DNA of 56,596 nt from Rhodobacter sp. (lineage in GTDB: Bacteria > Pseudomonadota > Alphaproteobacteria > Rhodobacterales > Rhodobacteraceae), in contig PNJK01000016.1 in the NCBI GenBank assembly GCA_013821825.1, positions 1 through 56,596 of the forward strand. Direction: 5' to 3'. Position numbers and translations under genes: made by a program. Positions within the stretch are counted from its first letter, which is position 1; every line of letters begins with the position of its first letter. This document shows, piece by piece, positions 17,256 through 38,014 of the stretch. The notes below the pieces were generated by a model. That model had not been told where the DNA came from. It searched no databases and saw only the letters and a list, made by a program, of their open reading frames with translations.

Positions 17256-18488
17256 CTACTCTGCCGCCTGATCAAGGTTCAGCCGGTCGGCCGCATAAAG
17301 GTAGTCGCGCGTGATCGGAACAGCATCCGGGCGTTTGCACAGCTGGAACTGGAACACGTCCTGTGGTCCGTGGCGGAAGGTCTGCTCGCTGGCGGCCAGA
17401 TAGAACCGCCACATCCTGACGAAGTCCGCGCCCTTGAGCGCAGTTGCGACTGCGGCCCTGGCACTGAAACGGTCGAACCAGCAGCGCAGGGTCAGGGCAT
17501 AGTGCAGACGCAGGCATTCGATGTCGCCGATCCGAAGACCGGCGTCCTGAAGTGCGACGACGACTTCGGAAAGGGCCGGAACATAGCCGCCGGGAAAGAT
17601 GTACTTGGCGATCCAGGCATTTGTCCCAGCCGGCGGTGCGGTCCGCCCGATGGTGTGGACAAGCGCCACGCCGTCATCCGTCAGGAGATTCTTCAACACG
17701 TTGAAGTAGTTCTGGTAGTTCGGTGCGCCGACATGTTCGAACATGCCCACCGACACGATCCGGTCAAAAGTCCCGGTCACCGCGCGGTAATCCATCAGTT
17801 CGAACGACACCCGATCAGCAAGGCCCGCAGCCTCGGCGCGGCTGCGCGCAATCGCCAGCTGCTCTTGCGACAGGGTTATTCCGGTCACCCGGGCTCCGTA
17901 GTCACCGGCCAGCGTCAGGGCAAGGCCACCCCAACCACAGCCGATATCAAGGACGCGCATCCCCGGGGTGATCAGAAGCTTGCGCGCGATATGCGCCTTC
18001 TTGGCCGCTTGTGCCGCTTGCAGGCTGCCTGAGGGATCGGTGAAATACGCGCAGGAATACTGTCGGTCGGGGTCAAGGAAGAGGTCATAGATCGCCGGCG
18101 TCAGATCATAGTGATGCGCGACATTGCGCCGGGATCGCCACGCCGGGTTGGCCTGGTAAAGCCGGCGCCACCGGCTGGGCCGCAGGGCCTGAAGCCGGGT
18201 CAGGACCGACATGTTGTGCCCACGGATCCCGCTTTTCACGACCACCGCAAGCAGACCCTGCACGTCATCGCCTTCAACCGTCAGCGAGCCGTCCACATAG
18301 CATTCGCCCAAAGCCAGTTCCGGGTCGAACATCAGCCGCCGGACCGTCGCCATATCCCTGAGATGAACCTTGGTCTTCGGTTCCTGACCACTGCCGAAGA
18401 CCATCTCGGGGCTGTCGGCAATGGTTACCACCATGGTCCCTTCGCGGACCAGGCGGCGCAAAAGACGGCTGAACAACGCAATCCACAT
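17256..18488 (-). CDS. cfa: Cyclopropane-fatty-acyl-phospholipid synthase family protein
   Basis: SAM-dependent methyltransferase that adds methylene bridges to unsaturated phospholipid acyl chains, hardening membranes in stress or stationary phase. It is 410 residues and probably peripheral to the inner membrane. The SAM motif VLDIGCGWGGLA is at 179-190. Further family motifs are HHYDL (125-129), YSCAYF (144-149), ITLSQEQ, and VSVGMFEHVG. The start at 18488 is chosen because GGAGGG lies just before it. An upstream ATG in the long ORF has no ribosome site. An Fnr-type box lies 58 bases upstream, tying the gene to the stress island that follows. Confidence 0.9.
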   Translation of the reverse strand: MWIALFSRLLRRLVREGTMVVTIADSPEMVFGSGQEPKTKVHLRDMATVRRLMFDPELALGECYVDGSLTVEGDDVQGLLAVVVKSGIRGHNMSVLTRLQALRPSRWRRLYQANPAWRSRRNVAHHYDLTPAIYDLFLDPDRQYSCAYFTDPSGSLQAAQAAKKAHIARKLLITPGMRVLDIGCGWGGLALTLAGDYGARVTGITLSQEQLAIARSRAEAAGLADRVSFELMDYRAVTGTFDRIVSVGMFEHVGAPNYQNYFNVLKNLLTDDGVALVHTIGRTAPPAGTNAWIAKYIFPGGYVPALSEVVVALQDAGLRIGDIECLRLHYALTLRCWFDRFSARAAVATALKGADFVRMWRFYLAASEQTFRHGPQDVFQFQLCKRPDAVPITRDYLYAADRLNLDQAAE

Positions 18489-18698
18489 GGGCCCTCCAGA
18501 CTGCCCAGGTTTCTGCCATGCTTTTCCATGATCTTTACCCAGGCATTGACCGAGGTCAACTTCGGATGCGGGTGGAAATCCTTGGAGTGTAGCAGGCCGC
18601 CGAAGCGCCATGCCGACGGGCGCGGCCCGACTTCGGGGCTGGGGGTGGCAGGGATCAAAGGCGCGCCTTCGCCGCGCGGTCGGCGAGAATTGCCGCCA
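18489..18698. other. cfa promoter region
   Basis: The 210 bases between cfa and the first Crp/Fnr gene (both minus strand) contain the Fnr-type box at 18546-18559. No coding potential is evident in the remainder. Confidence 0.5.
18546..18559. promoter_or_regulatory. Fnr/Dnr-type box upstream of cfa
   Basis: TTGACCGAGGTCAA is a perfect TTGAC-N4-GTCAA palindrome, matching the FNR/NNR/Dnr family site (TTGAT-N4-ATCAA and its TTGAC variants). Its centre is about 64 bases upstream of the cfa ATG, a sensible distance for activation. It is one of four such sites in the next 7 kb. Confidence 0.7.
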
Positions 18699-19463
18699 TT
18701 ACAGGTCGGAGGTGGAGTCCTCTGGTGTCTCCATGACCAGATCATCGCCCGCCGCATCGGTCAGGGTGTCCAGGTCCGCGATCTCGACAAGGTAGGGGTT
18801 CAGGATCCGCAGCACGCCTTGGTGTTCCAGCTCGTGAAAGGCCCGGCTGAGCGACTCTGGTCGCGTGCCAAGATAATGTGCCAGATCCTTGCGCGACAAG
18901 GGAATGCGCAGGCGTACCGGCGCGCCCGACGTCCCAACTCTGGACCGCCGCACCATGATCATCAGGAACGAGGCCAGCCGATTGGCGACCTTGCGGCCGC
19001 TCATCAGCAGCAGCCATTCCCTTGCCGCATCCATTTCATCAAGAAGATGCACCAGGAACAGCCGTTCCGCCTCGGGGTGCTGACGCAGGATCTCTTCCAG
19101 ACGGGCGCGCGGGAAGTAGACGATCCTTGAAGGCGTCAGGGCCTCGATCTGATAGTTGGACGGGCCATCGAAGATCCGGCCATAGATGTCGGTCGGCACC
19201 AGAAGGCCGACGATGTGCTTTCGGTCGTGCTCCAGCACCTGGGTCATCGCCAGGGTGCCGACGATCACGTACCCGACCTCGGTCGAGAGCTGACCGCTGC
19301 CCACAAGCACCTCGCCGGTCTCGACCTCGCGGATGCCGGCATGCGACAGAAGCGATTCCCTGATCTCGGGGGACAGCGAAGTCAGCAGTTTGCGCAGCAG
19401 ACCGTTTCCGGTGCTGATCACCTCACGGATGTCCTTTCGCAGCGTGATCCGCTCTTGCATCAT
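18699..19463 (-). CDS. Crp/Fnr-family regulator, FnrL-like but lacking Fe-S ligands
   Basis: A 254-residue transcription regulator with an N-terminal cyclic-nucleotide-type beta-barrel and a C-terminal winged helix. The middle (GLLVPTDIYGRIF; LDEMDAAREWLLLMSGRKVA) closely follows FnrL of Rhodobacter (known from memory of that family). The N-terminal cysteine cluster and the central cysteine of FNR are absent, so oxygen sensing through a [4Fe-4S] cluster is unlikely. The recognition helix keeps Glu203, Ser206 and Arg207 (E-x-x-S-R), the combination that reads TTGA half-sites. It could be a Dnr/NNR-like NO-responsive factor or a ligand-independent antagonist of FnrL. AAGGA precedes the ATG at 19463. 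Confidence 0.85.
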   Translation of the reverse strand: MMQERITLRKDIREVISTGNGLLRKLLTSLSPEIRESLLSHAGIREVETGEVLVGSGQLSTEVGYVIVGTLAMTQVLEHDRKHIVGLLVPTDIYGRIFDGPSNYQIEALTPSRIVYFPRARLEEILRQHPEAERLFLVHLLDEMDAAREWLLLMSGRKVANRLASFLMIMVRRSRVGTSGAPVRLRIPLSRKDLAHYLGTRPESLSRAFHELEHQGVLRILNPYLVEIADLDTLTDAAGDDLVMETPEDSTSDL

Positions 19464-19725
19464 CTGGATCCTTAAAGGGTCGTCGGCGCAATATCTTGCG
19501 AAGCAACAGCCAAGCGTCCGACTGCCCAGGTCCCATCACCACCCGATTGTCGCTGAAGCGTCCTTGATCCCTGTCAATGTGCCTGGATTATCTATCGTTA
19601 TCTTCATGGAAACCGGCAGCGATTCGCGCAGAGGTTGAGGTATGCGAGAAACCCTGACGCCGATTGCCAGCTACCCGTGCTGATCTGTCAAGCCCGGACC
19701 CAGAAGCTAGGTCGAAAGGTTCGCC
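19464..19725. other. Divergent promoter region between two Crp/Fnr genes
   Basis: These 262 bases separate two regulators transcribed away from each other. They contain an Fnr-type box at 19564-19577, about 107 bases from one start and 155 from the other. No ORF with family features is seen. Confidence 0.5.
19564..19577. promoter_or_regulatory. Fnr/Dnr-type box between divergent regulators
   Basis: TTGATCCCTGTCAA fits TTGAT-N4-GTCAA, one substitution from the symmetric FNR consensus. Its position between two crp/fnr-family genes suggests auto- or cross-regulation. Confidence 0.65.
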
Positions 19726-20676
19726 ATGAAAAGTCCGATCAAGGCACAGGACACTTCGTTTCAGCCCGCATTCGACGGCGTTCGTTCCCTGTCGGGCGGG
19801 TGCGCAACGGGATCGTCCGGTGGCCAGGCACGTTGCGCGGGACGGCTGCATGGCTGTCTCGGGAAACGCTTTGACCTTGAAGTCGGTTCAGTGGTCCTGA
19901 GCGGCGAAGCCCCAAGCCGCCATGTCTGGTTTGTCAGGTCTGGCATCCTCCGGCTGCAGCGCTACGGGTATACTGGCCGAAGACAGGTCTTGTCCCTGAT
20001 CCTGCCCGGCGAAACCATTGGCTACGAAGCGCAACTGCGCGAGGGGATGAGTGTCGATGCCGCGACGCCCTGCAATGTCTGCCGGATCGACAAGCGCGAT
20101 TTCGACCTGATGCTGGAAAGGGACAGCGACCTGCGCAAGGACTTCCTGCTCCAGCAACAGCGGCAGCTTGACCGGTTGCTGTGGCTGACCTGGTCCATCG
20201 GTGCGCTGCGGCCGGACGAGCGCTTCAGTGCCTTTCTTGTTTTGGCCAGCCGGTTCATGCCCTATCAGGTGCAGCCCGACGGCAGCGGCATTCTTTCGAT
20301 GCGACTGTCCCGGCCCGACATCGCCGATCTTCTGTCAACGACGGTCGAGACGATCAGCCGGATCACCCACCGCCTTGCCCATACCGGGATCATCGAGATC
20401 GTGGATCCAGCGAATTTCCGCATCAGGGACATGAAAAAGCTGTCCAAGCTTGGCCGGATCGGCTCGGGCTTCGACGGATTCCCGAAAGGGCCGGATCCGC
20501 AGAACACGCGGCTCAACGTCCTGTTGGGCCTTGTCGATGCCCAACCCGACGGCGTTTCGCGTGTCATGACGGCGGTCAATGAAAGACGGCAGATAACTCC
20601 TTATGCAAGTGATCAGTCCAGATCCACCAAAGGAGGAAACGTGACATGGCTGACAAGAGCACCAGTGTTGAAGTGA
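19726..20676 (+). CDS. Crp/Fnr-family transcriptional regulator
   Basis: A 316-residue regulator with a beta-barrel sensor domain (about 45-140), a dimerisation helix (QQRQLDRLLWLTWSIGA) and a winged-helix domain. The recognition helix reads LLSTTVETISRITHRL with Glu208, Ser211 and Arg212, as in FNR. The N-terminus carries Cys26, Cys37 and Cys44, and the barrel has Cys116 and Cys119. The spacing is not the FNR C-x2-C-x5-C pattern, so a cluster is possible but unproven. AAAGG precedes the ATG. The C-terminal 70 residues beyond the usual end are unassigned, and the last 31 bases overlap hsp20, whose ribosome site lies inside this gene. Confidence 0.82.
   Translation: MKSPIKAQDTSFQPAFDGVRSLSGGCATGSSGGQARCAGRLHGCLGKRFDLEVGSVVLSGEAPSRHVWFVRSGILRLQRYGYTGRRQVLSLILPGETIGYEAQLREGMSVDAATPCNVCRIDKRDFDLMLERDSDLRKDFLLQQQRQLDRLLWLTWSIGALRPDERFSAFLVLASRFMPYQVQPDGSGILSMRLSRPDIADLLSTTVETISRITHRLAHTGIIEIVDPANFRIRDMKKLSKLGRIGSGFDGFPKGPDPQNTRLNVLLGLVDAQPDGVSRVMTAVNERRQITPYASDQSRSTKGGNVTWLTRAPVLK
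20566..20579. promoter_or_regulatory. Degenerate Fnr-type box ahead of hsp20, inside the regulator gene
   Basis: ATGACGGCGGTCAA differs at one position from TTGAC-N4-GTCAA. It lies about 73 bases before the hsp20 ATG, within the 3' coding part of the Crp/Fnr gene, where an internal promoter would be needed for separate hsp20 expression. Confidence 0.4.
20596..20636 (+). promoter_or_regulatory. Hairpin masking the hsp20 ribosome-binding site (possible RNA thermometer)
   Basis: CTCCTT (20597-20602) is exactly complementary to AAGGAG (20630-20635), the Shine-Dalgarno of hsp20. Inside this stem a second one can form, GTGATC (20609-20614) with GATCCAC (20621-20627, one bulged C) around a six-base loop. 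The ATG at 20646 would be blocked until the helix melts. Alphaproteobacterial small heat-shock genes are often controlled by ROSE-type thermometers. The ROSE U-[UC]-GCU motif is not seen, so this would be a different or simpler version. Confidence 0.5.
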
Positions 20677-21176
20677 AACGCGAACCCGCCCAGCCGGGTG
20701 CGATGCAGGCAGCAGAATGGGAACCGTTTCGTTCGCTTCGCCACCAGTTCGACCGCCTGATGGATATCGACTGGCCTGACCTGCGCCTCGGCTGGCCGCG
20801 CCGTCCGGCGATCGCGTCGCAGGCCTGGCCCGAATTGGGCGTGGCCGTGCCGCCGGTCGATCTGGTCGAACGGAATGGCGGCTACGAGTTGCAGGCGGAA
20901 CTGCCCGGAATGACCAGGGATCAGGTCGAGATCAGGCTTTCGGACGGCATGATGACGATCAAGGGCGAAAAGTCGGCGGAACGGGTCGAGGACAAGGAGG
21001 ACTACTTCCTGCGCGAACGCAGCTATGGTTCGTTCCAGCGCTCGTTCCGCGTGCCCGCCAGCGTGGATGTCGACAAGATCGAGGCCAAGTTTGAAAACGG
21101 GGTTCTGAAGGTCACATTGCCGAAGTCGGCCGCTGCCCTTAAGCAGGAACGCAAGATCGAAGTGAAAGCGGCCTAG
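20646..21176 (+). CDS. hsp20: Small heat-shock protein, Hsp20/alpha-crystallin family
   Basis: ATP-independent holdase chaperone, 176 residues. The alpha-crystallin domain spans about 72-165, with VPPVDLVERNGGYELQAELP at its start, GMTRDQVEI, the hallmark FRVPASVDVDKIEAKFENGV, and L-K-V-T-L-P. A 70-residue N-terminal arm rich in Trp and Pro precedes it. The ribosome site AAAGGAGG lies ten bases before the ATG and can be sequestered by an upstream hairpin. It is next to Crp/Fnr regulators and converges with the APH/ATPase gene, with stop codons overlapping as CTAG. Confidence 0.92.
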   Translation: MADKSTSVEVKREPAQPGAMQAAEWEPFRSLRHQFDRLMDIDWPDLRLGWPRRPAIASQAWPELGVAVPPVDLVERNGGYELQAELPGMTRDQVEIRLSDGMMTIKGEKSAERVEDKEDYFLRERSYGSFQRSFRVPASVDVDKIEAKFENGVLKVTLPKSAAALKQERKIEVKAA

Positions 21177-22720
21177 CCGCCAGAGCTTGCCCCTTTGACA
21201 AGACTGCCAAGGGCCGCAGATGCTGCGGCCCTTGTTGCATCAGGCGACCCGCCGGCGTCAATTGTCTCCCACCCCGGATCGCTGACCGGCGCGTCAAGCG
21301 AAGCGATCTGTGCCGCCACAACGGCCGCATCGGCATCCGACGCATCCCCCTGTCGAGAGGTCACCCGCTTGGTCAGAACCGGCAGCGGGGCGGTCAGCCA
21401 AAAGCCCCGAAACGCAACGCCTTGGCGCAAGGCAAGGCCTTGCGCAGCGCGGCGCTGGGCCAGGTCCAGAAAGGTGCCGTCCAGGATCACGCTGCGGCCA
21501 GCCGCAAGGATATTTGCCGCCCGTGCCAGCATATGCGCGTAAACTGCAGATCGGGCGGCGGGGGCATAGCTGACCGGATGCGCCTCGGCCTTGCGTTCCG
21601 TGTCGGTGCGCAGGTGAACCGGGCCGGGACAGGCCCCGATGTCCTTTGCAAGATCGCGCGCAAGGACTGTCTTGCCGGTACCCGACACCCCGCCCACTGC
21701 GATCAGCACCAGCGCCTTCGGCTGCAGATACCTTGCAGCCTCCGTCAGATATCGCCGGGCTTCGGGCAGGCTTTCGCCGCTGTGGCCCGTCGCCAGGTCG
21801 GTCTGCAACAGAACCATCGCCCGGATCGCACCGCGCACCGCCATGAACAGGGGCAAGGCCGACAGGCCGGCATCCTCGGCCCTTGCCGCGGCAAGGAGAT
21901 AGGCCGTCATCGCGGCATTCGCCTGTCGGCCTAGGTCGCGGTGGCAAAGGTCCATCAGCAGGAACGCCAGATCGTAAAGCACATCGCAGGTGGCAAGCCG
22001 CTCATCAAACTCCAGCGCGTCGAACAGGACCGGCTGCCCCTCGATCAGCAGAAGGTTGCGCAGATGCAGATCGCCATGCACCCGGCGAACATGGCCGTTG
22101 GCGGCGCGGTCCCTCAGGTGCTGCGCAAGGTCGGCAAGTTGCTTGCGCGCCCGGCCAAGGAAGACATCCACCACGCCGCTGCCGATCTGGGTGTCGAACT
22201 CCGCCAACACGCGCCCCAACTCGTCCAGAATATCGCGGATCAGGGCGTCGCCGGGATCAGAGCGCCTGGGGCAGGCGGCATGGAAGCCTTGAACGGCACC
22301 GCCAAGGGCCTCGGCCACGGCATCCGTCAACCTTCCGCTGGCGGCCACTTCCGGCATCTCGCAATCGGCTGCAAAGCGGTGCATCCGCAGCGCCCATTCT
22401 ACGGGTGGACCCGAGCCGCTCAGTTCAAGTCCGCCGCCGGGGGCACGCGTGATGGGGACCACGTCGCGGTAGATCATCGGCGCAATGGAGCGGTTCAGGT
22501 CCAGTTCGCGTTGCACCAGGGCTTGCCGCAACTCTGGCGTCGACTGGTCCAGATAGTCATATCGGACTGCCCGCTTGATCTTCAGCGCAACCTCACCGCA
22601 CAGGAACACGTGCGCGCTGTGGGTTTCGATGTGGTTGATCTGACCGTCGGCCGGAAAGGCCCCGGGCGACATCAGAAAGCCGATCACCTCGGCCTGCTCA
22701 TCGCGCTTTGACTGTGTCAT
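21173..22720 (-). CDS. Aminoglycoside-phosphotransferase-like kinase fused to a P-loop ATPase
   Basis: A 515-residue two-domain protein. The N-terminal half (about 1-325) has the APH/choline-kinase fold: a lysine in VALKIKRAVRYDYLDQ, the Brenner motif VHGDLHLRNLLL (H-G-D-x4-N) and the metal Asp in LFDALEFD. The C-terminal half has Walker A GGVSGTGKT followed by a zeta-toxin/shikimate-kinase-like small-molecule kinase pattern (ILDGTFLDLAQRRAA). The real substrate is unknown; antibiotic resistance should not be assumed. The start at 22720 (MTQSKRDEQ) is preferred to upstream codons, which would run into the Fnr box. A paralogue of the first domain lies at 26164-27219. Confidence 0.8.
   Translation of the reverse strand: MTQSKRDEQAEVIGFLMSPGAFPADGQINHIETHSAHVFLCGEVALKIKRAVRYDYLDQSTPELRQALVQRELDLNRSIAPMIYRDVVPITRAPGGGLELSGSGPPVEWALRMHRFAADCEMPEVAASGRLTDAVAEALGGAVQGFHAACPRRSDPGDALIRDILDELGRVLAEFDTQIGSGVVDVFLGRARKQLADLAQHLRDRAANGHVRRVHGDLHLRNLLLIEGQPVLFDALEFDERLATCDVLYDLAFLLMDLCHRDLGRQANAAMTAYLLAAARAEDAGLSALPLFMAVRGAIRAMVLLQTDLATGHSGESLPEARRYLTEAARYLQPKALVLIAVGGVSGTGKTVLARDLAKDIGACPGPVHLRTDTERKAEAHPVSYAPAARSAVYAHMLARAANILAAGRSVILDGTFLDLAQRRAAQGLALRQGVAFRGFWLTAPLPVLTKRVTSRQGDASDADAAVVAAQIASLDAPVSDPGWETIDAGGSPDATRAAASAALGSLVKGASSGG
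21209..21233. terminator. Strong hairpin terminator for hsp20 inside the convergent gene
   Basis: AAGGGCCGCAG-ATG-CTGCGGCCCTT forms a perfect 11-bp stem with a 3-base loop 33 bases after the hsp20 stop. It lies within the last codons of the APH/ATPase gene on the other strand. Only a short TGTT follows, so efficiency on the plus strand is uncertain. Confidence 0.5.
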
Positions 22721-22906
22721 GCCGGTTCCCCGCTTTCGTCCCGCCTGCCACGGCGGGCATGCCCGATGATGACCTTGGGGCCTTCCGGAGGCCATGGCCT
22801 TGACAGTGATCAATGACCCTGCGGTCAGGGCCAGTCATATGGTTCCAGTGCTCCAGCCAGGACGATCGGACGACCGTCCATGGTCCAAACCCAGAAGGAG
22901 ATCCAG
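22721..22906. other. Divergent promoter region of the APH/ATPase and BON genes
   Basis: These 186 bases hold a well-formed Fnr box (22800-22813) between two divergent genes. A GGACG/CGTCC stem lies near the 3' end ahead of the BON gene. No gene is seen. Confidence 0.5.
22800..22813. promoter_or_regulatory. Fnr/Dnr-type box in a divergent promoter
   Basis: TTGACAGTGATCAA matches the FNR consensus at all core positions (TTGAC-N4-ATCAA). Its centre is about 86 bases from the APH/ATPase ATG and 100 bases from the BON-protein ATG, so it could drive both. Confidence 0.72.
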
Positions 22907-23554
22907 ATGTCTGACATGGAAATCAAAGAGAACATCCTTGACGCGTTCGAGTTCGAGCCCAGCCTTGATGCCGCCAGCATCGGGGTCGCTGTCGATCATG
23001 GCGTCGTGACCCTGTCAGGCCATGTGCCGACCTACGGCCAGAAACTGAAGGCCGAGGAACTGGCCATGGCCATCCGCGGCGTCAAGGCCATTGCCCAGGA
23101 GCTTGAGGTGCGCCCGATCGGCACCCACCTTACCGCCGATGACGAAATTGCCAGCCGCGTGCTGCACGTGCTGCGCTGGGGCACGACCCTGCCTGCGGAC
23201 GCCGTGAAGGTGAAGGTGCAGGCCGGCTGGCTGACGCTGTCCGGGTCGGTCGAATGGAACTACCAGCGTGAAGCAGCAGCGCGCGCGGTCCGCGACATGG
23301 CCGGGGTGAAAGGCGTCACCAACGCCATCGTGATCGAGGCCAAGGCCAGCCCTGCGGACATCCGTGACCGCATCGAAAAGGCGCTTAAACGACAGGCGGA
23401 ACTGGACATGAAGGACATCCGGGTCGAGGTGACCGACGGGTCGGTCACGCTGGAGGGCAAGGTTCACAGTCTTGCCGAACGCCGGGCGGTCGAACAGGCG
23501 GTCTGGGCCGCGCCCGGCATCCGCGAAGTGCGTGACCGGCTGTCTGTTGTCTGA
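22907..23554 (+). CDS. Protein with three BON domains
   Basis: A 215-residue protein made of three BON (OsmY-type) repeats at roughly 3-70, 77-145 and 147-215. Each has the alpha-beta pattern ending in G-x-V-T-L-x-G, here GVVTLSGHVP, GWLTLSGSVE and GSVTLEGKVH. BON domains are thought to bind membranes or protect envelopes during osmotic or other stress. No signal peptide is seen, so unlike OsmY this one should be cytoplasmic. The ATG at 22907 is set by AAGGAG six bases upstream. The gene belongs to the Fnr-boxed stress island. Confidence 0.85.
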   Translation: MSDMEIKENILDAFEFEPSLDAASIGVAVDHGVVTLSGHVPTYGQKLKAEELAMAIRGVKAIAQELEVRPIGTHLTADDEIASRVLHVLRWGTTLPADAVKVKVQAGWLTLSGSVEWNYQREAAARAVRDMAGVKGVTNAIVIEAKASPADIRDRIEKALKRQAELDMKDIRVEVTDGSVTLEGKVHSLAERRAVEQAVWAAPGIREVRDRLSVV

Positions 23555-23579
23555 TCCCGCGCGAAGGTGGTGCCTGCGG

Positions 23580-24131
23580 TCATCCTGCGGGCGCCACATC
23601 CACTGCAAAGGGGCCCTGCGCACCGGCCTGTTCCCTGAACCGCAGGCGGGCGCCGCGTCCAAGGTCGTCCCAGTCCCCGGCGACCAGGCTGTCCTTCTGG
23701 AAATAGACCTCCTTGCCATCGTCGGCGCGCAGGAAGCCATAGCCTAGCTCTGGCTCAAGCTCGATGATCTCGCCATGCAGGATGACCGGGTGATGCTTGA
23801 CCTCAAGCCCGCCCAGTTTCAGTCGTGCCTCCTTGGCCTGCTGTTCCAGTGCCGTGAAGGCCGCGTTCACTGCCCGCAACAGGTCATCCGCCGCATGGCC
23901 TTGCCGCACGCTGCGGGCCACGTCGACATCCGGCCCCGGAAGTGACAGGTGCAACCGGACATCAAAGCCGCGACCGGCGTTCCGCGGCTTTTGCGGGGCG
24001 TCCAGAACGATGCTCAGGCCGATTGCATCAGGACAGAACTTCTCGATCGAGGCGATCCGTTTCCGGATCACCGCATCGACAGCCTCGGACTTCTGGATGT
24101 TGCGCCAGGTGATTCTGGGCTCGCGCTGCAT
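23580..24131 (-). CDS. HPF/RaiA-type ribosome-associated domain fused to a cold-shock domain
   Basis: A 183-residue two-domain protein. Residues 1-110 follow the hibernation-promoting factor pattern (ITWRNIQKSEAVDAVIRKRI, IEKFCPDAIGLSIVLD, a duplex-binding beta sheet, and DLLRAVNAAFTALEQQA), which binds the 30S decoding region and silences translation. Residues 115-180 form a cold-shock/OB fold with RNP-like GYGFLRADDGKEVYF. The usual long HPF has a different C-terminal dimerisation domain. It is the third gene of an operon (PRPP-synthetase paralogue, CBS protein, HPF-CSD) that starts at the Fnr box at 25602. The start at 24131 is the first ATG of the HPF domain. Confidence 0.85.
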   Translation of the reverse strand: MQREPRITWRNIQKSEAVDAVIRKRIASIEKFCPDAIGLSIVLDAPQKPRNAGRGFDVRLHLSLPGPDVDVARSVRQGHAADDLLRAVNAAFTALEQQAKEARLKLGGLEVKHHPVILHGEIIELEPELGYGFLRADDGKEVYFQKDSLVAGDWDDLGRGARLRFREQAGAQGPFAVDVAPAG

Positions 24132-24142
24132 GGGGACGCCTT

Positions 24143-24562
24143 TCAACGATGGTGGTCGGCGACGGCGTTGATCAACTCTCCCACCAGCCGCTGGGGCAGG
24201 GCGTCGGCGACATCCCCAAGGCTCAGCATGCCGACCAGCCGCTTCTTGTCGTCGATCACCGGCAGCCGACGGATCTTTTTCTGTTCCATCAGATAGACGG
24301 CATCCTCGACGGTCTGCGTGGTCCGGCACCAGATTATGCCCGGAGTCATCACCTGTTCCACCGTCGTCTTTGCAGGATCACGGCCTTCGCCCAAGACTTT
24401 CAATGCAAGGTCCCGGTCTGTCACCATGCCGATCAAGCGATCATCCTTGCCGACAGGCAGCGCTCCGATGTCGGCCGCCTGCATCCGCCTGGCGGCTTCG
24501 GCGACCGGGGTGTCGGCTTCCACCCATTCCGCCGGAGTGTGCATCACCTTTTCGATTTCCAT
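24143..24562 (-). CDS. Twin CBS-domain protein
   Basis: A 139-residue stand-alone CBS-pair protein. The first CBS covers about 8-60 (MHTPAEWVEADTPVAEAARR ... GMVTDRDLALKVL) and the second about 72-130 (VMTPGIIWCRTTQTVEDAVY ... LVGMLSLGDVAD). Such pairs bind adenine nucleotides and report energy state to a partner. No partner domain is attached. It starts at ATG 24562 or at the adjacent GTG 24565, with AAGGAAAGGGA upstream, and lies 26 bases after the PRPP-synthetase gene in the same operon. Confidence 0.88.
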   Translation of the reverse strand: MEIEKVMHTPAEWVEADTPVAEAARRMQAADIGALPVGKDDRLIGMVTDRDLALKVLGEGRDPAKTTVEQVMTPGIIWCRTTQTVEDAVYLMEQKKIRRLPVIDDKKRLVGMLSLGDVADALPQRLVGELINAVADHHR

Positions 24563-24588
24563 CACGTTTCCCTTTCCTTACAAAGGTC

Positions 24589-25578
24589 TCAACGGGTCAT
24601 TCCCGAGGGGTCCAGAACCGGGCTGACCGCCTGTCCCTGGTGCATACGCGCAAGACATTGCCCGATCATGGGGGCGACGCTCAGCCGGTGGATCCGCAGG
24701 TCCGGCAAGTCCGCGGTCCGGCCTGTCGTGTCGGTGACCGTCACCGTGTCGATGGCCGGATCCTTCAGGCGCCCGATGTCTTCGGCACCGCAGAACATGT
24801 GCGTCGCCATCAGGTGCACCGACCGGGCCCCGCGCTCGCGGCACGCCCGGGCTGCCCGCAGCATGGTCTCGCCGCTTTCGATCATGTCGTCGACGATCCA
24901 GACCTCATGATCCTCGACGGTTCCAGCGAAGAGATGACCGCTGACCACGCCCCCCGAGCGGTGCTTTTCCATGAAGGCAAAGCCCGCAGGCTTGTTGCGC
25001 ACCAGTTCGACCGACTGGCGCAGTAGCTCGGCCCGCTTCAACCCTCCGCCATCCGGCGACATGACGGTGACCGGGGCCTCGCCTGCCCGCGCCGCAATCT
25101 CGTTCGAGAAAAGCCGGCAGGTGTCCAGATGGACCGTCTGGCAGCGGAACCCGTTCTGGAACGCGGCCTGGTTGTGGACGTCTATCGTGATCACGACATC
25201 GGTTCGCACCGCGTCGAAAAGCTGCGCGACATAGCGCGAACTGATGGGGTCCCGCGCCTTGGTCATCCGGTCCTTCCGGGCGTAGGGTAACCAGGGCACG
25301 ACCGCCGTCACCCGCTCTGCGCCATGATCGCGGCAGGTGGCGATGAAGAACAGCAACCGGACCAGAAGGTCGTTCACGGATAGGCCGTCACCCGCATTCA
25401 AGGCCGAAAGCACGAACACATCCTCGCCGCGCACGCTGACCAGGGGGCGCAGCTTGTGCTGCCCGCCGCCGAAGCTGCGCAGTTCCAGTGGCGTCAGCGG
25501 ATGGCCAGCGTGGCGCGCGACGTCCGGACCAAGTGCTGGATCGGGTGTGAGGTCGAAAATCTGCATGCTGTGCATCAT
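24589..25578 (-). CDS. prs: Ribose-phosphate pyrophosphokinase-like protein (second copy type)
   Basis: A 329-residue member of the PRPP-synthetase family, which makes phosphoribosyl pyrophosphate from ribose-5-phosphate and ATP for nucleotides, His, Trp and NAD. It keeps the PRPP-binding loop VWIVDDMIESGETM and the metal His in ITIDVHNQ, but the flexible ATP loop reads YARKDRMTKARDPISSRYVA instead of Y-A-R-Q-D-R-K, and the flag region differs from housekeeping Prs. It is probably a stress-regulated paralogue. The longer ORF start at 25602 lies inside the Fnr box and is rejected. ATG 25578 is chosen, with GGAG upstream. It is the first gene of the operon leading to the CBS and HPF genes. Confidence 0.82.
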   Translation of the reverse strand: MMHSMQIFDLTPDPALGPDVARHAGHPLTPLELRSFGGGQHKLRPLVSVRGEDVFVLSALNAGDGLSVNDLLVRLLFFIATCRDHGAERVTAVVPWLPYARKDRMTKARDPISSRYVAQLFDAVRTDVVITIDVHNQAAFQNGFRCQTVHLDTCRLFSNEIAARAGEAPVTVMSPDGGGLKRAELLRQSVELVRNKPAGFAFMEKHRSGGVVSGHLFAGTVEDHEVWIVDDMIESGETMLRAARACRERGARSVHLMATHMFCGAEDIGRLKDPAIDTVTVTDTTGRTADLPDLRIHRLSVAPMIGQCLARMHQGQAVSPVLDPSGMTR

Positions 25579-25601
25579 CGGCAAACGCCGCTCCGGCTTC
25601 A

Positions 25602-25615
25602 TTGACAGCCGTCAA
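25602..25615. promoter_or_regulatory. Fnr/Dnr-type box in a divergent promoter
   Basis: TTGACAGCCGTCAA is a perfect TTGAC-N4-GTCAA palindrome between the prs-CBS-HPF operon (start 25578) and the DUF2267-APH operon (start 25748). It is very close to the prs start (about 30 bases from centre) and about 140 bases from the DUF2267 start. It may therefore activate the second operon, and either repress or define a very short leader for the first. Confidence 0.68.
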
Positions 25616-25747
25616 TGTGATTGCGGCGGTCGCCCGCGATATTTGCAGAAGCGGAAGAAAGGTCGGTTCTCCGACGGGCTGCTGCCCCGGCGCGTTCCGT
25701 CACTTCCGTCCAGCCAGTTGGCTGGCCAGCTGGAATGGGAACACAGC

Positions 25748-26173
25748 ATGAAAACCACGGGAATTTCTTCGATCGACCATGCGCCGCAAGTGGTGGCCGA
25801 ATGGCTTAACCTGCTCCAGACAGACTTGGGCTGGTCGGACCGGGGCCGCGCACTCCAGCTTTTGCGCGGTACGCTGCACGCCTTGCGCGACTTCCTGACC
25901 GTGGATGAGGCCGCCGACCTGGCTGCGCAATTGCCGCTGCTGATCAGGGGTATCTACTTCGAAGGCTGGGTGCCCTCCAAGACCCCGGCGCATCCCCGCA
26001 CGGCCGAAGACTTCATGGGCCGCGTGACGAAATCCTTCGGCAATGACCCGCCAATTGATCCCGATGCCGCTATAGCGGCTGTGTTTTCGGTGCTGCGGCG
26101 CCAGATCAGCCTTGGCGAGTATGACCAGATCACCCACGCAATGCGCAAATCCCTGCGGCATCTGTGGATGTGA
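25748..26173 (+). CDS. DUF2267 domain protein
   Basis: A 141-residue protein of the DUF2267 family, an all-helical domain of unknown function. Typical features are DLGWSDRGRALQLLRGTLHA, LPLLIRGIYFEGW and the final ITHAMRKSLRHLW. Proteins of this family recur next to Hsp20, CBS, BON and PRPP-related genes in oxygen-limitation regulons of unrelated bacteria (from general knowledge of such regulons). No catalytic pattern is evident. The ATG at 25748 has GGGAA nearby. It overlaps the following APH-like gene. Confidence 0.82.
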   Translation: MKTTGISSIDHAPQVVAEWLNLLQTDLGWSDRGRALQLLRGTLHALRDFLTVDEAADLAAQLPLLIRGIYFEGWVPSKTPAHPRTAEDFMGRVTKSFGNDPPIDPDAAIAAVFSVLRRQISLGEYDQITHAMRKSLRHLWM

Positions 26174-27219
26174 GGACTGACTTGCCCGATCCGCCGTGGC
26201 AGGTGTCGACAGAACGGAAAGTCGCGTTCCTGTCGGGGCTGCCGGGCGTGACGCAGGTGATCGAGACGCATATGGCCTATGTGTTCCTGACAGCGAAGTT
26301 TGCCTTCAAGCTGAAAAAACCGATCTGTTTCGGGTATTTCGATCATCGTAGCCTGCCCGCGCGCGCCCACGCCTGCGCCGAGGAGGTGCGGCTGAACCAG
26401 GCCTTGGCAGGGGATGTCTATATCAGGCCGATACCGCTGGTCTCGTCTGGCGAGTGGCTCTGGCTGGGTGGCAAGGGGCCGTTGGCCGGCCGGCCTCTGG
26501 CAGGCTGGCCGGTGGTCGATTGGCTGGTCCAGATGCGGCGCTTGCCTCAGGCGCGGATGCTGGACACGGTGATTGCTGCGGGGCAGGGCCCGCGGAAAGA
26601 CGAGATGTCGGCGGTCGTAGCGCTCCTTGCGCGGTTTTACCGCCAGCAGCAGGCTTCTCCGGTCAGGGCGGGCCTCTACTTTACCCATCTCCACCGCGAA
26701 CAGCGGGTCAACGCAACCCACCTGACGAAGATGGCCCACCGCCTTCCTAACCCCGGTCTGGCCCGTGTGGCAGAGGATCTGAGCCGTCGGCTTGACCTTG
26801 CCGCCCCCGACATCGCCGCCCGGGAACAGGCCGGATTTGTGGTCGAAGGCCATGGCGATCTGCGGCCCGAACATGTCTGCCTGACGCGCCCGCCGGTGAT
26901 CTTTGACCGGGTGGAAAGCGCAGTCGAACTGCGGGTCCTCGATATCTATGACGAGGTCGGATATCTGGCTGCGGAATGCACCATGCTGGGCCGCCCCGAT
27001 CTGGGCAAGGCGCTGACAGGCGCGCTTGAAGCCGAGGGCTTTGCACCCCCGGACCCCGCGCTGATGACCACCTATGCCATGTTCAGGCTGGTTACGCGGG
27101 CGCGGCTGGCCATCGACCATCTGCAGGATGAAAGCCCGCGCACGCCTGCCAAATGGCCGCGGCGTGCCCATGACTACCTGGCTGAGGCGTCCCGGCTATC
27201 GGCAGAAGCGCCTGCCTGA
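26164..27219 (+). CDS. Aminoglycoside-phosphotransferase-like protein with altered active site
   Basis: A 351-residue single-domain relative of the APH half of the protein at 21173-22720 (compare VIETHMAYVFLTAKFAFKLK with HIETHSAHVFLCGEVALKIK). The phosphate-transfer Asp is kept in VVEGHGDLRPEHV, but the Asn of H-G-D-x4-N is His, and the metal-binding segment reads IFDRVES rather than LFDALEFD. It lacks the P-loop domain. Catalysis may be altered or absent. The start is uncertain: GTG 26164 and GTG 26170 both overlap the DUF2267 stop. Together with DUF2267 it forms a two-gene operon behind the box at 25602. Confidence 0.72.
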   Translation: MDVRTDLPDPPWQVSTERKVAFLSGLPGVTQVIETHMAYVFLTAKFAFKLKKPICFGYFDHRSLPARAHACAEEVRLNQALAGDVYIRPIPLVSSGEWLWLGGKGPLAGRPLAGWPVVDWLVQMRRLPQARMLDTVIAAGQGPRKDEMSAVVALLARFYRQQQASPVRAGLYFTHLHREQRVNATHLTKMAHRLPNPGLARVAEDLSRRLDLAAPDIAAREQAGFVVEGHGDLRPEHVCLTRPPVIFDRVESAVELRVLDIYDEVGYLAAECTMLGRPDLGKALTGALEAEGFAPPDPALMTTYAMFRLVTRARLAIDHLQDESPRTPAKWPRRAHDYLAEASRLSAEAPA

Positions 27220-27223
27220 TTGC

Positions 27224-27709
27224 TCACAAGGATTGCGGCCCGCCATCCATCGCCTTCAGGATCACCCTGGGAAGATCCTGCGCTGAAAGATGCACAAGGT
27301 CCCTTGGCACTTCACAGACCACCGTGGCGCGCAGCGTCCCGGGCAGCATCTGTCGCAGGGTGCCCAGGACATCCTGTTCGGCAAAGACGGCCAGCTTGTC
27401 GAAATCGCCCGCGCGCCGGTGACTTTCCAGCATTGCCAGAACCTGACGGATGAACTCGCGCCGGTCATCGCCGACAGGGTCGCTGCCCGGAGCCGCGCTG
27501 CCAGCGAGAGGTGCTGTCCGGCGACTTGGGCTTCTGAATCGAAAGTCACGGCCTGATCCGTCCGACATGCTCTGTCGAAGGTTTCTGGCTTCCGATTTCA
27601 TGACCAGTTCGACCTCCTGATCCACACCCGCTTCAGCCAGCCCGCGCAGCACGCGGGCGCGGGCGGAATTCATCGCCAGCGCCCATGTCCTTGATTGTTC
27701 CCTTCCCAT
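27224..27709 (-). CDS. Host-attachment-family (baeRF-like) protein
   Basis: A 161-residue protein of the family annotated as 'required for attachment to host cells', now grouped with bacterial relatives of archaeo-eukaryotic release factors. Matching features are SRTWALAMNSARARVLRGL near the start, HRRAGDFDKLAVFAEQDVLG, and near the end LRATVVCEVPRDLVHLSAQD. Its real role may be at the ribosome rather than in adhesion. The start at 27709 is favoured by the GAGAG upstream; ATG 27727 is possible. A weak Fnr-like site (TTGACGAATCACAA, 27775-27788) lies upstream. It converges with the APH-like gene, five bases apart. Confidence 0.75.
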   Translation of the reverse strand: MGREQSRTWALAMNSARARVLRGLAEAGVDQEVELVMKSEARNLRQSMSDGSGRDFRFRSPSRRTAPLAGSAAPGSDPVGDDRREFIRQVLAMLESHRRAGDFDKLAVFAEQDVLGTLRQMLPGTLRATVVCEVPRDLVHLSAQDLPRVILKAMDGGPQSL

Positions 27710-27774: not shown

Positions 27775-27788
27775 TTGACGAATCACAA
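27775..27788. promoter_or_regulatory. Weak Fnr-like box
   Basis: TTGACGAATCACAA has one perfect half-site and a second half matching three of five bases. It lies about 54-72 bases before the host-attachment gene, and so is in the right place but below the quality of the other four sites. Confidence 0.25.
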
Positions 27789-27874
27789 TGGCCGCGCAGG
27801 CCGATGGCGTCTTTTGGCGGGCAACCCCGGTCCTGGCAGTGCCAGACCCGGCTAATTTCCCGCCCGAGCCGCGC

Positions 27875-28236
27875 TCAGCGCAACAGAGGGCTCACCCGGG
27901 CCAGCTCGACCGGGTTCCTGACCTCCATCTTCCGCAGGACCCGCGACCGGTGTACCTCGACTGCGCGCATGGCGATGCCCGGACAACGGGAGCGCTGCCA
28001 TTACCTCGACCTCACGCGGAGACAGCGTTGCATGGCGCGCTGCAATGGCGGCGCGGGTGTCGGTCTCCTCGGCACGGCTCTGGCGCAACTGACTGGCATG
28101 CCGCGCCAGATCGACGATCTGATTCTCGTTGAAAGGCTTTTTCAGAAAGCCGAAAGCGCCGTTCTTCGGGCTTTGCACGGCCAAGGGAACATCGGCATGC
28201 CCGGTCAGGAAGATCACCGGGGGCAGGGCGTTCTCC
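27875..28236 (-). pseudogene. dctR: Remnant of a FixJ-type response regulator, probably dctR
   Basis: Only the second half of the receiver and pieces of the DNA-binding domain remain. The frame from 28236 reads ENALPPVIFLTGHADVPLAV, then FGFLKKPFNENQIVDL (the conserved switch and Lys region), then ATLSPREVEVMAAL. The helix-turn-helix then continues in another frame with GIAMRAVEVHRSRVLRKMEV and VELARVSPLLR before the stop, so a segment of about ten codons is missing together with a frameshift. The N-terminal half including the phosphorylated Asp is gone. It is called dctR because it sits divergent to a dctP remnant, as in Rhodobacter, where DctSR controls dctPQM. Confidence 0.7.
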
Positions 28237-28649
28237 GAGGTCTACCAGCGCTGCAGACCGGCGCAGTCGACGGCTCCGAAAACCCGCCCTCGAGCATGTA
28301 TACCCGGAAAATGAACGAGGTTCAGACCCAGCAACCGTGTCGAACCACGGCTATCTGGGATATGCGATCATCGTGAACAAGCGGTTCTGGGGCGGCCTTC
28401 CCGAAGACGTTCGCGCCGATCTGAACAAGGCGATGATGGAGGCCTCCGACCTCGCCAACCCGATCGCCAAAGATCACAACGACGCCGCGCTCGCGGCAAG
28501 GGTGGCGGGCAATACGACCGAATTCTCCGAGTTGACCGCCGATGAGCGCGCAGTCTGGATCGAGGCTCTGGTCCCGGTCCAAGACGAGATGGCCTAACGC
28601 ATCGGCGCCGACACTATGGCCGCCGTCAAGGGCGCCATCGGTCTGTAGG
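28228..28649 (+). pseudogene. dctP: Remnant of the TRAP dicarboxylate-binding protein gene dctP
   Basis: The plus strand encodes the C-terminal 40 percent of a DctP-type solute receptor in three broken pieces: AFSEVYQ, then (one base lost) LQTGAVDGSENPPSSMYTRK, then (shifted again near 28320) ATVSNHGYLGYAIIVNKRFW and onward to VQDEMA. A stop at 28595-28597 interrupts the end, after which RIGADTMAAVKGAIGL still follows in frame. The signal peptide and most of the ligand site are absent. The 5' break coincides with the break of the dctR remnant, so one deletion removed both N-termini and their shared promoter. Confidence 0.8.
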
Positions 28650-28740
28650 TCCGGCTTACGCGGCAGTCCCAGACCAGAGACTGCTCCCAGCCCGTCTTCA
28701 CCCAATCCCGGAACTTGCCCCGAACCATGCGGGGTGTGCC

Positions 28741-30114
28741 ATGCTGCGCCTTCTTGACCGGCTTGAGGAAGTGCTGATCGCCACGCTGATCGCGGTGGCG
28801 ACCGTGCTTGTCTTCATCACCGTCACCCACCGCTTTGCCATCGGCCTCGCGGCCGACCTTGTCGGTTCGTCCCGATTGGTCGAGATGCCGGCGCTTGCCG
28901 ATCTTGCCAGATCGATGTTCAAGATATTCAACGCGCTGAAGATGACCTGGGCGCAAGAGGCCTGCATCTATCTCTTCGTCTGGAGGGCCAGGTTCGGCGC
29001 GGCCTGTGGGGTGCGGACCGGCGTCCATGTCCGTGCCGATATCCTGGCCGAACGCCTGATCCAGGCGCAGGCCGAGGCCATCGCCAAGTCCGCGCCCGCC
29101 GATCTCACCGGCTACACCCGCGTCAAGCAAGAGCTTGTCGCCCCACCCTTCGCCCCGGTTCACGATCAGGTCGCGACCGGCGGGCCCAAGATCGTCGAAG
29201 TCCATCTGGAGACGCAGCAACGTCTCATGACCGTCGACGGGGACACCGGTGCCGAGATCTGGGCGCTGAGCTACAACGGCTCGGTTCGCGGGCCGCAAAC
29301 AAACGCGCATGAGGGCGATCATGTCGAAGTGACGCTTCGCAACCCCACTGACGGCGTGTTCGAACCCGACATCGATTTCCACGCCTCGAGCGGGGCGCTG
29401 GGCGGCGGCGGGCTGACCCATGTCTTCCCCGGCAAGGAAGCCGTGCCGCTCCGGAAGGCGACCAAACCCGGCGTCCTCACCTGTCACTGCGTACCGGGGG
29501 GCGAGATGATCCCCTGCCACATCTGCCACGGCATGAATGGCACCATGAAGTTGCAGCCGGGCGACGGGCTGAAGCACGGCCAGGGCAATCCGCTGCGTCA
29601 TGGCGAAATCGCCCACATCGGCCGGCAGGACTATTCCATGCCGATGAACGAGGAGGGCAGCCACAAGACCTAAGCGACCGCAGGCGCGGACTACTCCGAC
29701 GGTCTTGCGGCGATGCGCGGGCTGGTTGCGACACCTTCGGTGTTCAATCGTGCCGTTGGGGCGCTGACCGGCGACAAGGCCCTGCGGAGCAAGGTTGGCG
29801 ACTCCGTGCTGATGATCCACAATCAGGCCAACCACGACACCTGCCCGCACCTGATCGGCGGACACGGCAACTTCGTCCGGGAGCCGGGGTCGTTCAACGA
29901 CGCACCCGCGACCAACTTCAAGACCTGGCTGATCCGTGGCGGCCCGTCTGGGGCAGCGATGTACACCTTGGAACAGCCCGGCGTCTGCGCCTTCGTCAAC
30001 CACAACCTGATCGAGGCCGAGCTGCTGGGCGCCACTGCGCATTGCGTGGTCCAGGGTGAATGGAACAACGCGCTGAAGGAACAGGCCCCGGCGCCGAAAG
30101 CCTTCGAGACCTGA
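28741..30114 (+). pseudogene. nirK: dctQ-nirK fusion pseudogene
   Basis: The first 105 residues are the N-terminal part of a TRAP small permease DctQ (LDRLEEVLIATLIAVATVLV; TWAQEACIYLFVW; GVRTGVHVRADILAERL). From about residue 106 the frame continues into a copper nitrite reductase beginning in its signal-peptide end (AQAEAIAKSAPADLTGY) and covering both cupredoxin domains. A TAA at 29671-29673 stands where an aromatic codon is expected; the same frame then runs on to 30114 with VFNRAVGALTGDKAL and PHLIGGHGNF. The type-1 copper His of M-H-N is lost (EPD before IDFHASSGALGGGG), while the His-Cys, second His and Met ligands remain. A functional enzyme is not expected. Confidence 0.85.
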
Positions 30115-36702: not shown

Positions 36703-36856
36703 GGCTGCAGTTTCCGATAGTGAACGGGCCTGTCGCTTTTTCGCGACGATGCGGCGCATTACCGCGATTTTTTGCCTTGCACCAGTCCGGGGCGCCCCTT
36801 ATTCACGGCAGCGGGACACCCTTCCCCAACGAAGGGCTTTTAGCTGGAAGGCTACC
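36703..36856 (+). promoter_or_regulatory. serC leader region with alternative hairpins (serC RNA motif candidate)
   Basis: Just before serC the plus strand can form CCCTTC-CCCAAC-GAAGGG (36819-36836) followed by CTTTT, a terminator-like hairpin. The same CCTTCC (36820-36825) is exactly complementary to GGAAGG (36846-36851), the serC ribosome site, so the two folds are mutually exclusive. A GC-rich palindrome (GGGGCGCCCC, 36789-36798) lies upstream. A 'serC leader' RNA of alphaproteobacteria whose last stem overlaps the serC ribosome site is known. The match here is by position and structure, not by alignment. Confidence 0.6.
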
Positions 36857-38014
36857 ATGACAGAGCTTACCCCGCCGGCCAAGCGCCCGGCCAATCCGCG
36901 CTTCTCTTCTGGCCCCTGCGCCAAGATCCCCGGTTTCTCCCTCGACATGCTCGCCGATGCGCCGCTGGGCCGCTCGCACCGCGCCGCGGTTGGCAAGGCC
37001 AAGCTGAAAGAGGCGATCGACCTGACCCGCGAGATCCTCGGCGTTCCCGCCGACTATCGCATCGGCATCGTTCCCGCCTCGGATACCGGCGCCATGGAAA
37101 TGGCGATGTGGTCCCTGCTGGGCGCGCGTCCGGTCGAGATGCTGGCCTGGGAGTCGTTCGGCGAAGGCTGGGTCACCGATGTGGTGAAGCAGCTGAAACT
37201 GGACGCCAAGGTGCGTATCGCGCCTTACGGGCAGATCGTGGATTTCGCCGAAGTTGATTTCAACAAGGATGTCGTCTTCACCTGGAACGGCACCACCTCC
37301 GGCGTCCGCCTGCCAAACGGCGACGCGATCCCCGCGACCCGTCAGGGCCTGACCATCTGCGACGCGACCAGCGCCGCTTTCGCGATGGACCTGCCGTGGC
37401 AGAAACTCGACGTCACCACCTTCTCCTGGCAGAAGGTGTTAGGCGGCGAGGGCGCGCATGGCGTGATCATCCTCTCGCCCCGCGCCGTTGAGCGGCTGGA
37501 GAGTTACACTCCCGCCTGGCCGCTGCCAAAGATCTTCCGGCTGACCGCCAAGGGCAAGCTGATCGAAGGCATCTTCGCCGGTGAGACGATCAACACCCCC
37601 TCGATGCTGGCAAATGAAGATTACCTTGTCGCGCTGAAATGGGCGAAATCCGTGGGTGGGCTGAACGGCCTGATCGCCAGGGCGAATGCGAACGCCAGGG
37701 TTGTTCACGACTTCTGCGCCCAGAACCCCTGGATCGCGAACCTGGCGGAAGACCCGGCGACGGCATCGACCACCTCGGTCTGCCTGAAATTCACCGATCC
37801 GCGCATCGCCGATGGCGAGGCCTTCGCCAAGGCCGTCGCCAAGCGGATCGAGAAGGCCGGCGCAGGCTTCGACTTAGGCGCCTACCGCGACGCGCCTCCG
37901 GGTCTGCGGATCTGGTGTGGCAGCACGGTGGAAACCGCCGATGTGGCGGCACTAATGCCCTGGATCGCCTACGCCTTCCACGCCGAGATCGCGGCGGTTT
38001 CGCAACCTGCATGA
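36857..38014 (+). CDS. serC: Phosphoserine aminotransferase
   Basis: PLP enzyme that converts 3-phosphohydroxypyruvate to phosphoserine, 385 residues, in the alphaproteobacterial SerC subgroup. N-terminal [56 protein letters not shown], and the PLP lysine in [14 protein letters not shown] are clear. GGAAGG lies five bases before the ATG at 36857 and can be hidden by the leader hairpin. It is separated from serA by an 87-base stretch carrying a palindromic repeat. Confidence 0.95.

Follow-up and report, generated by a model that had tools for sequence, protein, structure and literature searches.

A probable oxygen-limitation survival island of a Rhodobacteraceae-type bacterium with a putative metabolic unit of a phosphoribosyl pyrophosphate synthetase paralogue, Prs2, and an APH-like protein, APH2

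What has mainly been known of low-oxygen dormancy islands so far is their chaperones and universal stress proteins (USPs). The DosR regulon of Mycobacterium tuberculosis includes CBS-pair and HPF-like members. In the part of the source available to us, the hspX operon of this regulon combines under hypoxia the Hsp20-type protein HspX with a USP, a Pfk-like protein and a phosphoribosyltransferase (PRT)-domain protein (PMC4410610). For the FnrL, FnrN and FixK2 regulons of Alphaproteobacteria, the available parts of three reports place USP, Hsp20, CBS and host-attachment proteins among the targets or among microoxia-induced genes (PMC5398030, PMC11784457, PMC6515984). The closest described analogue of the locus reported here is the low-oxygen-activated (lxa) locus of Burkholderia cenocepacia and relatives, which has PncB and PpsA in an extension and, in excerpts of the published work, is linked to anoxic persistence (PMC6127331, PMC9104464, PMC3759415, PMC4981469). 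Here we describe positions 17,256 to 27,709 of a 56,596-nucleotide stretch of Rhodobacter sp. DNA (GenBank contig PNJK01000016.1, assembly GCA_013821825.1; hereafter, the window). This locus is probably an oxygen-limitation survival island carrying a metabolic unit of two proteins, Prs2, a paralogue of phosphoribosyl pyrophosphate (PRPP) synthetase, and APH2, a kinase-like protein of putative APH fold.

The island resembles lxa, which the initial annotation of this DNA had not named, in its Hsp20-type protein, BON protein and Crp-type regulators (BCAM0287 in lxa), and in being a patchily distributed cluster with stress and metabolic genes. Whereas lxa encodes six USPs, the island has none: two single-sequence USP profiles taken from a Prs2 locus of the comparison set (L089) found no match in the window, and the Pfam results for the island hold no Usp domain. 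Membership in lxa was ruled out on this feature. HPF, the CBS pair, DUF2267, APH-AAA and APH2 are not named for lxa, many of whose genes are listed as hypothetical. DosR, with its different phylum and different regulator, can be likened to the island by function only, and we know of no Prs2-APH2 in that regulon. By analogy, the island may function as lxa and the hypoxia-related part of DosR do. TTGA-N6-TCAA boxes are common to the island and the FnrL/FnrN/FixK2 regulons, of which the descriptions, in the parts available, mention no Prs2-APH2 island (PMC5398030, PMC11784457, PMC6515984). What is new here is the Prs2-APH2 unit; no description of the pair was found in the open-access literature searched, subscription literature lying mostly outside that search.

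Genomes tend either to keep both Prs2 and APH2 or to lose both. Across a class sample (190 genomes), a phylum sample (398 genomes) and close relatives, intact APH2 was found in 22 distinct genomes, all 22 with Prs2, and Prs2 in 27, of which 22 have APH2 and 5 do not; three genomes present in both samples (G000, G066 and G145) were counted once. The class sample holds 12 genomes with APH2, 13 with Prs2 and 12 with both (hypergeometric P = 4e-18), and the phylum sample 9, 13 and 9 (P = 1e-15), P values for which the counts include the island's own genome and phylogeny is ignored, the 12 class-sample genomes bearing 12 different family codes. Two of 14 class-sample APH2 matches were dropped post hoc as APH-AAA-like (G079 at 32% identity with a frame of 522 amino acids, G180 at 29% with one of 560), and with these kept the figure becomes 12 of 14. 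APH2 matched 104 phylum-sample genomes, of which only the 9 above 200 bits were counted (the next scored 167), a cut set after the scores had been seen; the other 95 were taken as APH-AAA relatives by their scores and mostly longer frames, not one by one.

The close relatives comprise nine genomes, behind ten loci. Full-length APH2 occurs in G190, G191, G194 and G198, exactly the four with Prs2; three others (G192, G193 and G195) hold APH2 matches of 54 to 77 residues only and no Prs2 beyond the housekeeping-type enzyme, and G196 and G197 have neither. One Cypionkella metagenome-assembled genome (MAG; G190) contains two copies of the island, L002 with the pair intact and L006 with no prs2, aph2 in two pieces and duf2267 whole, which could represent two strains in one bin. 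In 14 of the 17 sampled genomes that carry both (own genome excluded), prs2 and aph2 lie tail to tail, their aligned ends 7 to about 310 bases apart. They share a strand 1.5 kb apart in G066, diverge 4.8 kb apart in G369 and stand at the ends of two different contigs in G093. The window, L002, L007 and L084 have the two genes pointing away from each other on either side of DUF2267.

Prs2 matches PRPP synthetases over its full length (204 bits against TIGR01251, cut-off 113). It retains the DD, KxR and D/E-x-H (His) motifs, which have catalytic meaning in PRPP synthetases, in all the variants listed for 26 rows, and we infer that it would be active as a PRPP synthetase. Prs2 is not the housekeeping enzyme of its genome, in which contig 75 carries a better-scoring prs. 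A midpoint-rooted tree of 51 sequences sets 40 Prs2 tips, including three repeats of the same gene, apart from nine housekeeping-type enzymes (branches 0.50 and 1.07, support 0.86 and 1.0). Among PRPP synthetases Prs2 is thus a separate clade, here FNR-boxed, to which the relatives' housekeeping enzymes match at 29-33% identity. It is rare (13/190 class genomes and 13/398 phylum genomes) and also occurs on plasmids, 18 of the 40 plasmid records listed matching at 42% identity or more. A third PRPP-synthetase-like gene of the own genome (contig 89, 1088-1903; 178.7 bits to TIGR01251) falls outside both the Prs2 and the housekeeping clades. In Bradyrhizobium, the ribose-phosphate pyrophosphokinase bll3116 is microoxia-induced according to the accessible part of the report (PMC6515984).

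APH2 matched no family in Pfam or NCBIfam, and a profile search against PDB sequences returned nothing up to E = 1. It does match the APH half of APH-AAA, the other APH-like protein of the island (29% identity, E = 4.3e-13), and its structural model, which is of low confidence, resembles the APH fold with glucosamine kinase, maltokinase and choline kinase as fold neighbours. APH2 keeps the Lys, Glu, HGD and later Asp. In its loop, HGD is present in 23/23 sequences and His stands at the Asn place in 23/23 (HGDxxxxH), whereas APH-AAA proteins have Asn in 76/83. With the APH/choline kinase superfamily APH2 shares the HGD loop and, as far as the low-confidence model shows, possibly the fold; it differs by HGDxxxxH in place of HGDxxxxN and by having no family match at the sequence level.

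Four perfect TTGA-N6-TCAA (FNR/Anr) boxes occur in the window, and all four lie in the island (Table 1). The genome holds 52 such sites in 4.02 Mb, the island's four included, versus 22 for the reversed pattern; 0.135 boxes are expected in 10.45 kb, and a Poisson model gives P = 1.3e-5 for four or more. With the start codons, which were chosen by homology, all four perfect boxes are intergenic (non-coding sequence is 9%), while with the longest possible frames three would touch a frame start: those at 18546 and 22800 and, by its first base, that at 25602. As in FNR/FnrL regulons, the boxes precede transcription units and recur in relatives, those of hsp20 and baeRF having one mismatch. By its sequence, then, the island probably belongs to an FNR-type regulon, and low-oxygen co-regulation of its genes appears well supported. 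Reading direction suggests the units cfa, crpA, crpB-hsp20, aph-aaa, bon3, prs2-cbs-hpf, duf2267-aph2 and baeRF; prs2 is likely the first gene of its operon, and duf2267 and aph2 likely share one. The canonical FnrL of the genome is encoded on contig 1 (454 bits, cut-off 300; CX2CX7C plus a central Cys), and the two island regulators are therefore more likely secondary. CrpA reaches 130 bits against the same model (cut-off 300) and has no conserved cysteine set; CrpB keeps its central Cys in 10/10 rows, 3 of them the window itself, and is possibly an Fe-S or redox sensor.

We compared the best 80 of 435 loci anchored on APH-AAA. No other island family was present in the flanks of 46, and 14 held at least three. 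Boxes numbered 72 in 245 kb (2.93 per 10 kb) in these 14 rich loci versus 104 in 1,217 kb (0.85) in the other 66, with one match to the reversed pattern in each set; in 19 of the 66 poor loci a perfect box lay between 400 bp upstream and 200 bp downstream of the APH-AAA frame start. Boxes stand at the starts of orthologous island genes, cfa included, in L002, L006 and L008. Where the window has one-mismatch boxes, relatives have perfect ones, before hsp20 in L002, L006, L008, L010 and L011 and near the baeRF start in L002, L006, L008 and L010. The prs2/duf2267 box is also present in L002 and L007. The Hsp20 gene of L089 was considered as the published rlv_1399 and rejected, its boxes at -132.5/-178.5 differing in spacing from the -87.5/-143.5 given in the part of the report seen (PMC11784457).

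We compared 22 Prs2 loci, 10 of them plasmid loci hand-picked from the 18 best plasmid Prs2 matches, with 20 random stretches of 20 kb each. These were placed at round coordinates in 10 of the 12 class-sample genomes, none came from plasmids and many shared a contig with a Prs2 locus. Profiles were made from the island and from genes neighbouring Prs2 on rhizobial and Azospirillum plasmids. Those for PRT, nicotinate phosphoribosyltransferase (NAPRT), USP, GroEL and similar proteins were single proteins of L088 and L089, both among the 22, and the island profiles include members from the tested loci. With these profiles, APH2 was found at 19/22 Prs2 loci versus 0/20 random stretches, PRT at 16/22 versus 0/20, NAPRT at 7/22 versus 1/20 (L138, on a Prs2 contig), Hsp20 at 10/22 versus 1/20, GroEL at 9/22 versus 0/20 and HPF at 5/22 versus 1/20 (again L138). 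Removal of L088 and L089 left APH2 at 18/20, PRT at 14/20 and NAPRT at 6/20 Prs2 loci. The loci without APH2 were L088, L112 and L113, the last cut by a contig end in a genome (G093) with APH2 on another contig. FNR boxes at Prs2 loci numbered 55 over 309 kb (1.78 per 10 kb) and 26 over 222 kb (1.17 per 10 kb), versus 1 in 400 kb of random sequence. L138, a control stretch of G093 at least 11 kb from Prs2 on the contig of L113, carries HPF-CSD, NAPRT and the sole FNR box of this first random set; from it, the module may be wider than 20 kb.

Ten phylum-sample Prs2 loci had 17 boxes in 200 kb versus 1 in 240 kb of a second random set (12 stretches from 8 of the 10 phylum-sample genomes), which matched Cfa, Hsp20, BON, CBS, MgtA and glucokinase once each and HPF twice. 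Among the ten, other module genes accompany APH2 at all six loci that bear it and boxes occur at four of these six, and the four loci without APH2 have neither; APH2 therefore tends to mark what appears to be a stress form of Prs2, with L088 an exception. Contig 9 of the own genome (L180, 5965-7201) carries a perfect FNR box and, after it, a second baeRF12 gene that overlaps a PRT gene, the genome's one relative of the rhizobial PRT. In a table within the part of the source seen, nicotinate and adenine phosphoribosyltransferases are among the anoxic-survival fitness genes of B. cenocepacia H111 (PMC9104464), described in excerpts as a strain without the lxa locus (PMC9104464, PMC3759415). In B. 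contaminans, PncB belongs to the lxa cluster in its extended form (PMC4981469), and the DosR hspX operon includes the PRT-domain protein already mentioned (PMC4410610).

These results bear on several claims of the initial annotation. It had taken the genes for a co-located set under Crp/Fnr control and pointed to the same families in the oxygen-limitation regulons of distant bacteria; shared perfect boxes, confined within the window to the island, favor the former, and the families do recur in other FNR-boxed clusters. Its description of the island as self-contained goes too far, with FnrL on another contig and the second baeRF12 and FNR-boxed PRT genes on contig 9. In relatives the genes do scatter, as the 46 loci lacking any other island family show, though 19 of the poor loci have boxes near APH-AAA starts.

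We propose that falling oxygen would lead FnrL, probably with the two local Crp/Fnr proteins, to bind the TTGA-N6-TCAA boxes and turn on the transcription units. Cfa and BON3 would protect membranes, Hsp20 proteins and HPF idle ribosomes, and the CBS protein would probably act as an adenylate-type sensor. Prs2 would make PRPP under low-oxygen control, with APH2 as a small-molecule kinase of its pathway that, as a first guess, might phosphorylate ribose or a riboside. Phosphoribosyltransferases, one of them FNR-boxed elsewhere in the genome, would spend the PRPP on nucleobase or nicotinate salvage and so hold nucleotide and nicotinamide adenine dinucleotide (NAD) pools in dormancy. More tentatively, and at somewhat less than an even chance in our estimate, Prs2 and APH2 may be two enzymes that form a unit not described before and by which a class of low-oxygen islands in Proteobacteria is defined. 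In it, a dedicated PRPP synthetase would need an HGDxxxxH APH-fold kinase for its product or its activity, and the two would make a phosphoribosyl metabolite or run PRPP-driven NAD and nucleotide salvage for anoxic survival. If this is true, some dormancy islands have a PRPP supply and a partner kinase of their own, nucleotide and NAD upkeep in dormancy becomes testable, and the unnamed APH2 family acquires a partner, a motif and a physiological setting.

Several observations weigh against this proposal. The lxa table, in the part of the source available, names no prs (PMC4981469). Plasmid locus L088 has Prs2 with Hsp20, USP and NAPRT, and L112 has Prs2 and PRT, both with neither APH2 nor a box. 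While 19/25 Prs2-APH2 loci have one or more perfect FNR boxes, six (L084, L092, L109, L115, L195 and L196) have none in the stretch examined. By profile search, the window island has no PRT or NAPRT. APH2 could be catalytically altered, given His where APH enzymes have Asn, and the model that likens it to the APH fold is poor (predicted local distance difference test score, pLDDT, 60.8). Most of the relatives are represented by MAGs or drafts of unstated completeness, in which an absent gene may be unassembled, absence at the locus itself being surer than absence elsewhere in the genome. Finally, TTGA-N6-TCAA boxes can also serve Dnr/NnrR-type regulators.

The last point allows a response to nitric oxide or denitrification rather than oxygen, with CrpA as a Dnr/NnrR-type reader of the same boxes. 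CrpA lacks conserved N-terminal cysteines, Rhodobacter CZR27 has nap genes close to its prs2, and the degraded multicopper-oxidase sequence to the right of the island reads, we presume, like nitrite reductase (nirK). We nevertheless regard this response as rather unlikely: the genome encodes a canonical FnrL, the annotated genes of the rhizobial box-rich stretches examined (gene tables incomplete) include no denitrification gene, and in Rhizobium a small heat-shock protein gene carrying such a box depends on FnrN and is induced ca. 50-fold under microaerobic conditions, as the portion of the report seen states (PMC11784457). Slightly less doubtful, yet still unlikely, is that APH2 regulates Prs2, binding or phosphorylating the synthetase as an on/off switch under energy stress. 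Such a role would fit a Prs2 that occurs without APH2 in 5/27 genomes and a counted intact APH2 that never occurs without Prs2 (22/22), as well as the invariant Asn-to-His change (23/23) and the housekeeping-type prs also carried by the five APH2 genomes examined (own, G190, G191, G194 and G198). It is at odds with the small-molecule kinases that neighbor the low-confidence APH2 model and with the retained Lys, Glu, HGD and later Asp.

That Prs2 and APH2 are functionally unlinked and co-travel only on a shared mobile stress island is improbable. The patchy distribution of Prs2 and its plasmid copies would be expected of such an island; against this, the pair stays closely adjacent across many families while other island genes vary, and APH2 is broken where Prs2 is missing, yet DUF2267, Hsp20 and Cfa are full-length in L006 and L008. 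The APH-type domains could also suggest aminoglycoside resistance determinants. Rv2004c of the DosR regulon is, we assume, an APH-AAA protein. A review, as far as its text was available, credits Rv2004c with mild streptomycin phosphotransferase activity (PMC8701281). Resistance was considered for APH2 and rejected, and for the APH-like genes in general it is very improbable, as they are linked to Prs2 and stress genes and no resistance-specific Pfam or NCBIfam model matched. The streptomycin activity also qualifies the initial annotation, in which these kinases were biochemically undefined: the APH-AAA type is not wholly so. The preferred reading remains an oxygen-limitation island with a Prs2-APH2 metabolic unit.

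Table 1. Genes and FNR boxes of the island and its edge (window coordinates)
Feature	Positions	Strand	Description
cfa	17256..18488	-	cyclopropane-fatty-acid synthase type methyltransferase; PF02353, E 2e-89; chosen start ATG 18488 (longest frame from 18611)
perfect FNR box TTGACCGAGGTCAA	18546..18559		before cfa; centre 64.5 bp upstream of chosen cfa start
crpA	18699..19463	-	Crp/Fnr regulator; PF13545, PF00027; N-terminal cysteines not conserved
perfect FNR box TTGATCCCTGTCAA	19564..19577		between divergent crpA and crpB
crpB	19726..20676	+	Crp/Fnr regulator with conserved central Cys
one-mismatch FNR box	20566..20579		before hsp20, within crpB 3' end
hsp20	20646..21176	+	small heat-shock protein; PF00011, E 5.6e-25
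aph-aaa	21173..22720	-	APH-like domain fused to AAA_33 P-loop kinase domain; PF01636, PF13671; chosen start 22720 (longest frame from 22813)
perfect FNR box TTGACAGTGATCAA	22800..22813		between aph-aaa and bon3
bon3	22907..23554	+	triple BON-domain protein; PF04972 in three stretches
hpf	23580..24131	-	HPF/RaiA (S30AE) with C-terminal cold-shock-like domain; PF02482, E 5.6e-8, 33.8 bits, cut-off 23.7
cbs	24143..24562	-	CBS-domain pair protein; PF00571 in two stretches
prs2	24589..25566	-	PRPP synthetase paralogue; PF13793, PF14572; TIGR01251 above cut-off; chosen start 25566 (longest frame from 25602)
perfect FNR box TTGACAGCCGTCAA	25602..25615		between prs2 and duf2267-aph2
duf2267	25748..26173	+	PF10025, E 1.2e-30
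aph2	26164..27219	+	stand-alone kinase-like protein of putative APH fold, motif HGDLRPEH; overlaps duf2267
baeRF	27224..27709	-	baeRF family 12 / Host_attach; PF10116, PF18856
one-mismatch FNR box	27775..27788		before baeRF

Pfam supports each gene named in the initial annotation except the second APH-like one, placed by its identity to APH-AAA. The protein called HPF-CSD was confirmed in its S30AE part, and its cold-shock end scored 22.5 bits against the NCBIfam CspE model, below the cut-off of 120. Island GC content is 63.4%, versus 65.5% in the remainder of the window, and by GC alone there is no sign of recent foreign origin. An Rfam scan of the window at gathering thresholds gave a single match, outside the island: a serC leader RNA at 36809-36860 (RF00517, 66.4 bits). 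The left flank of the island encodes an NMT1-type binding protein and an ANTAR regulator. The right flank (27852-30114) contains truncated genes, namely the end of a response regulator, a C-terminal piece of DctP and a DctQ piece running into the degraded multicopper-oxidase sequence, and looks like a deletion junction.

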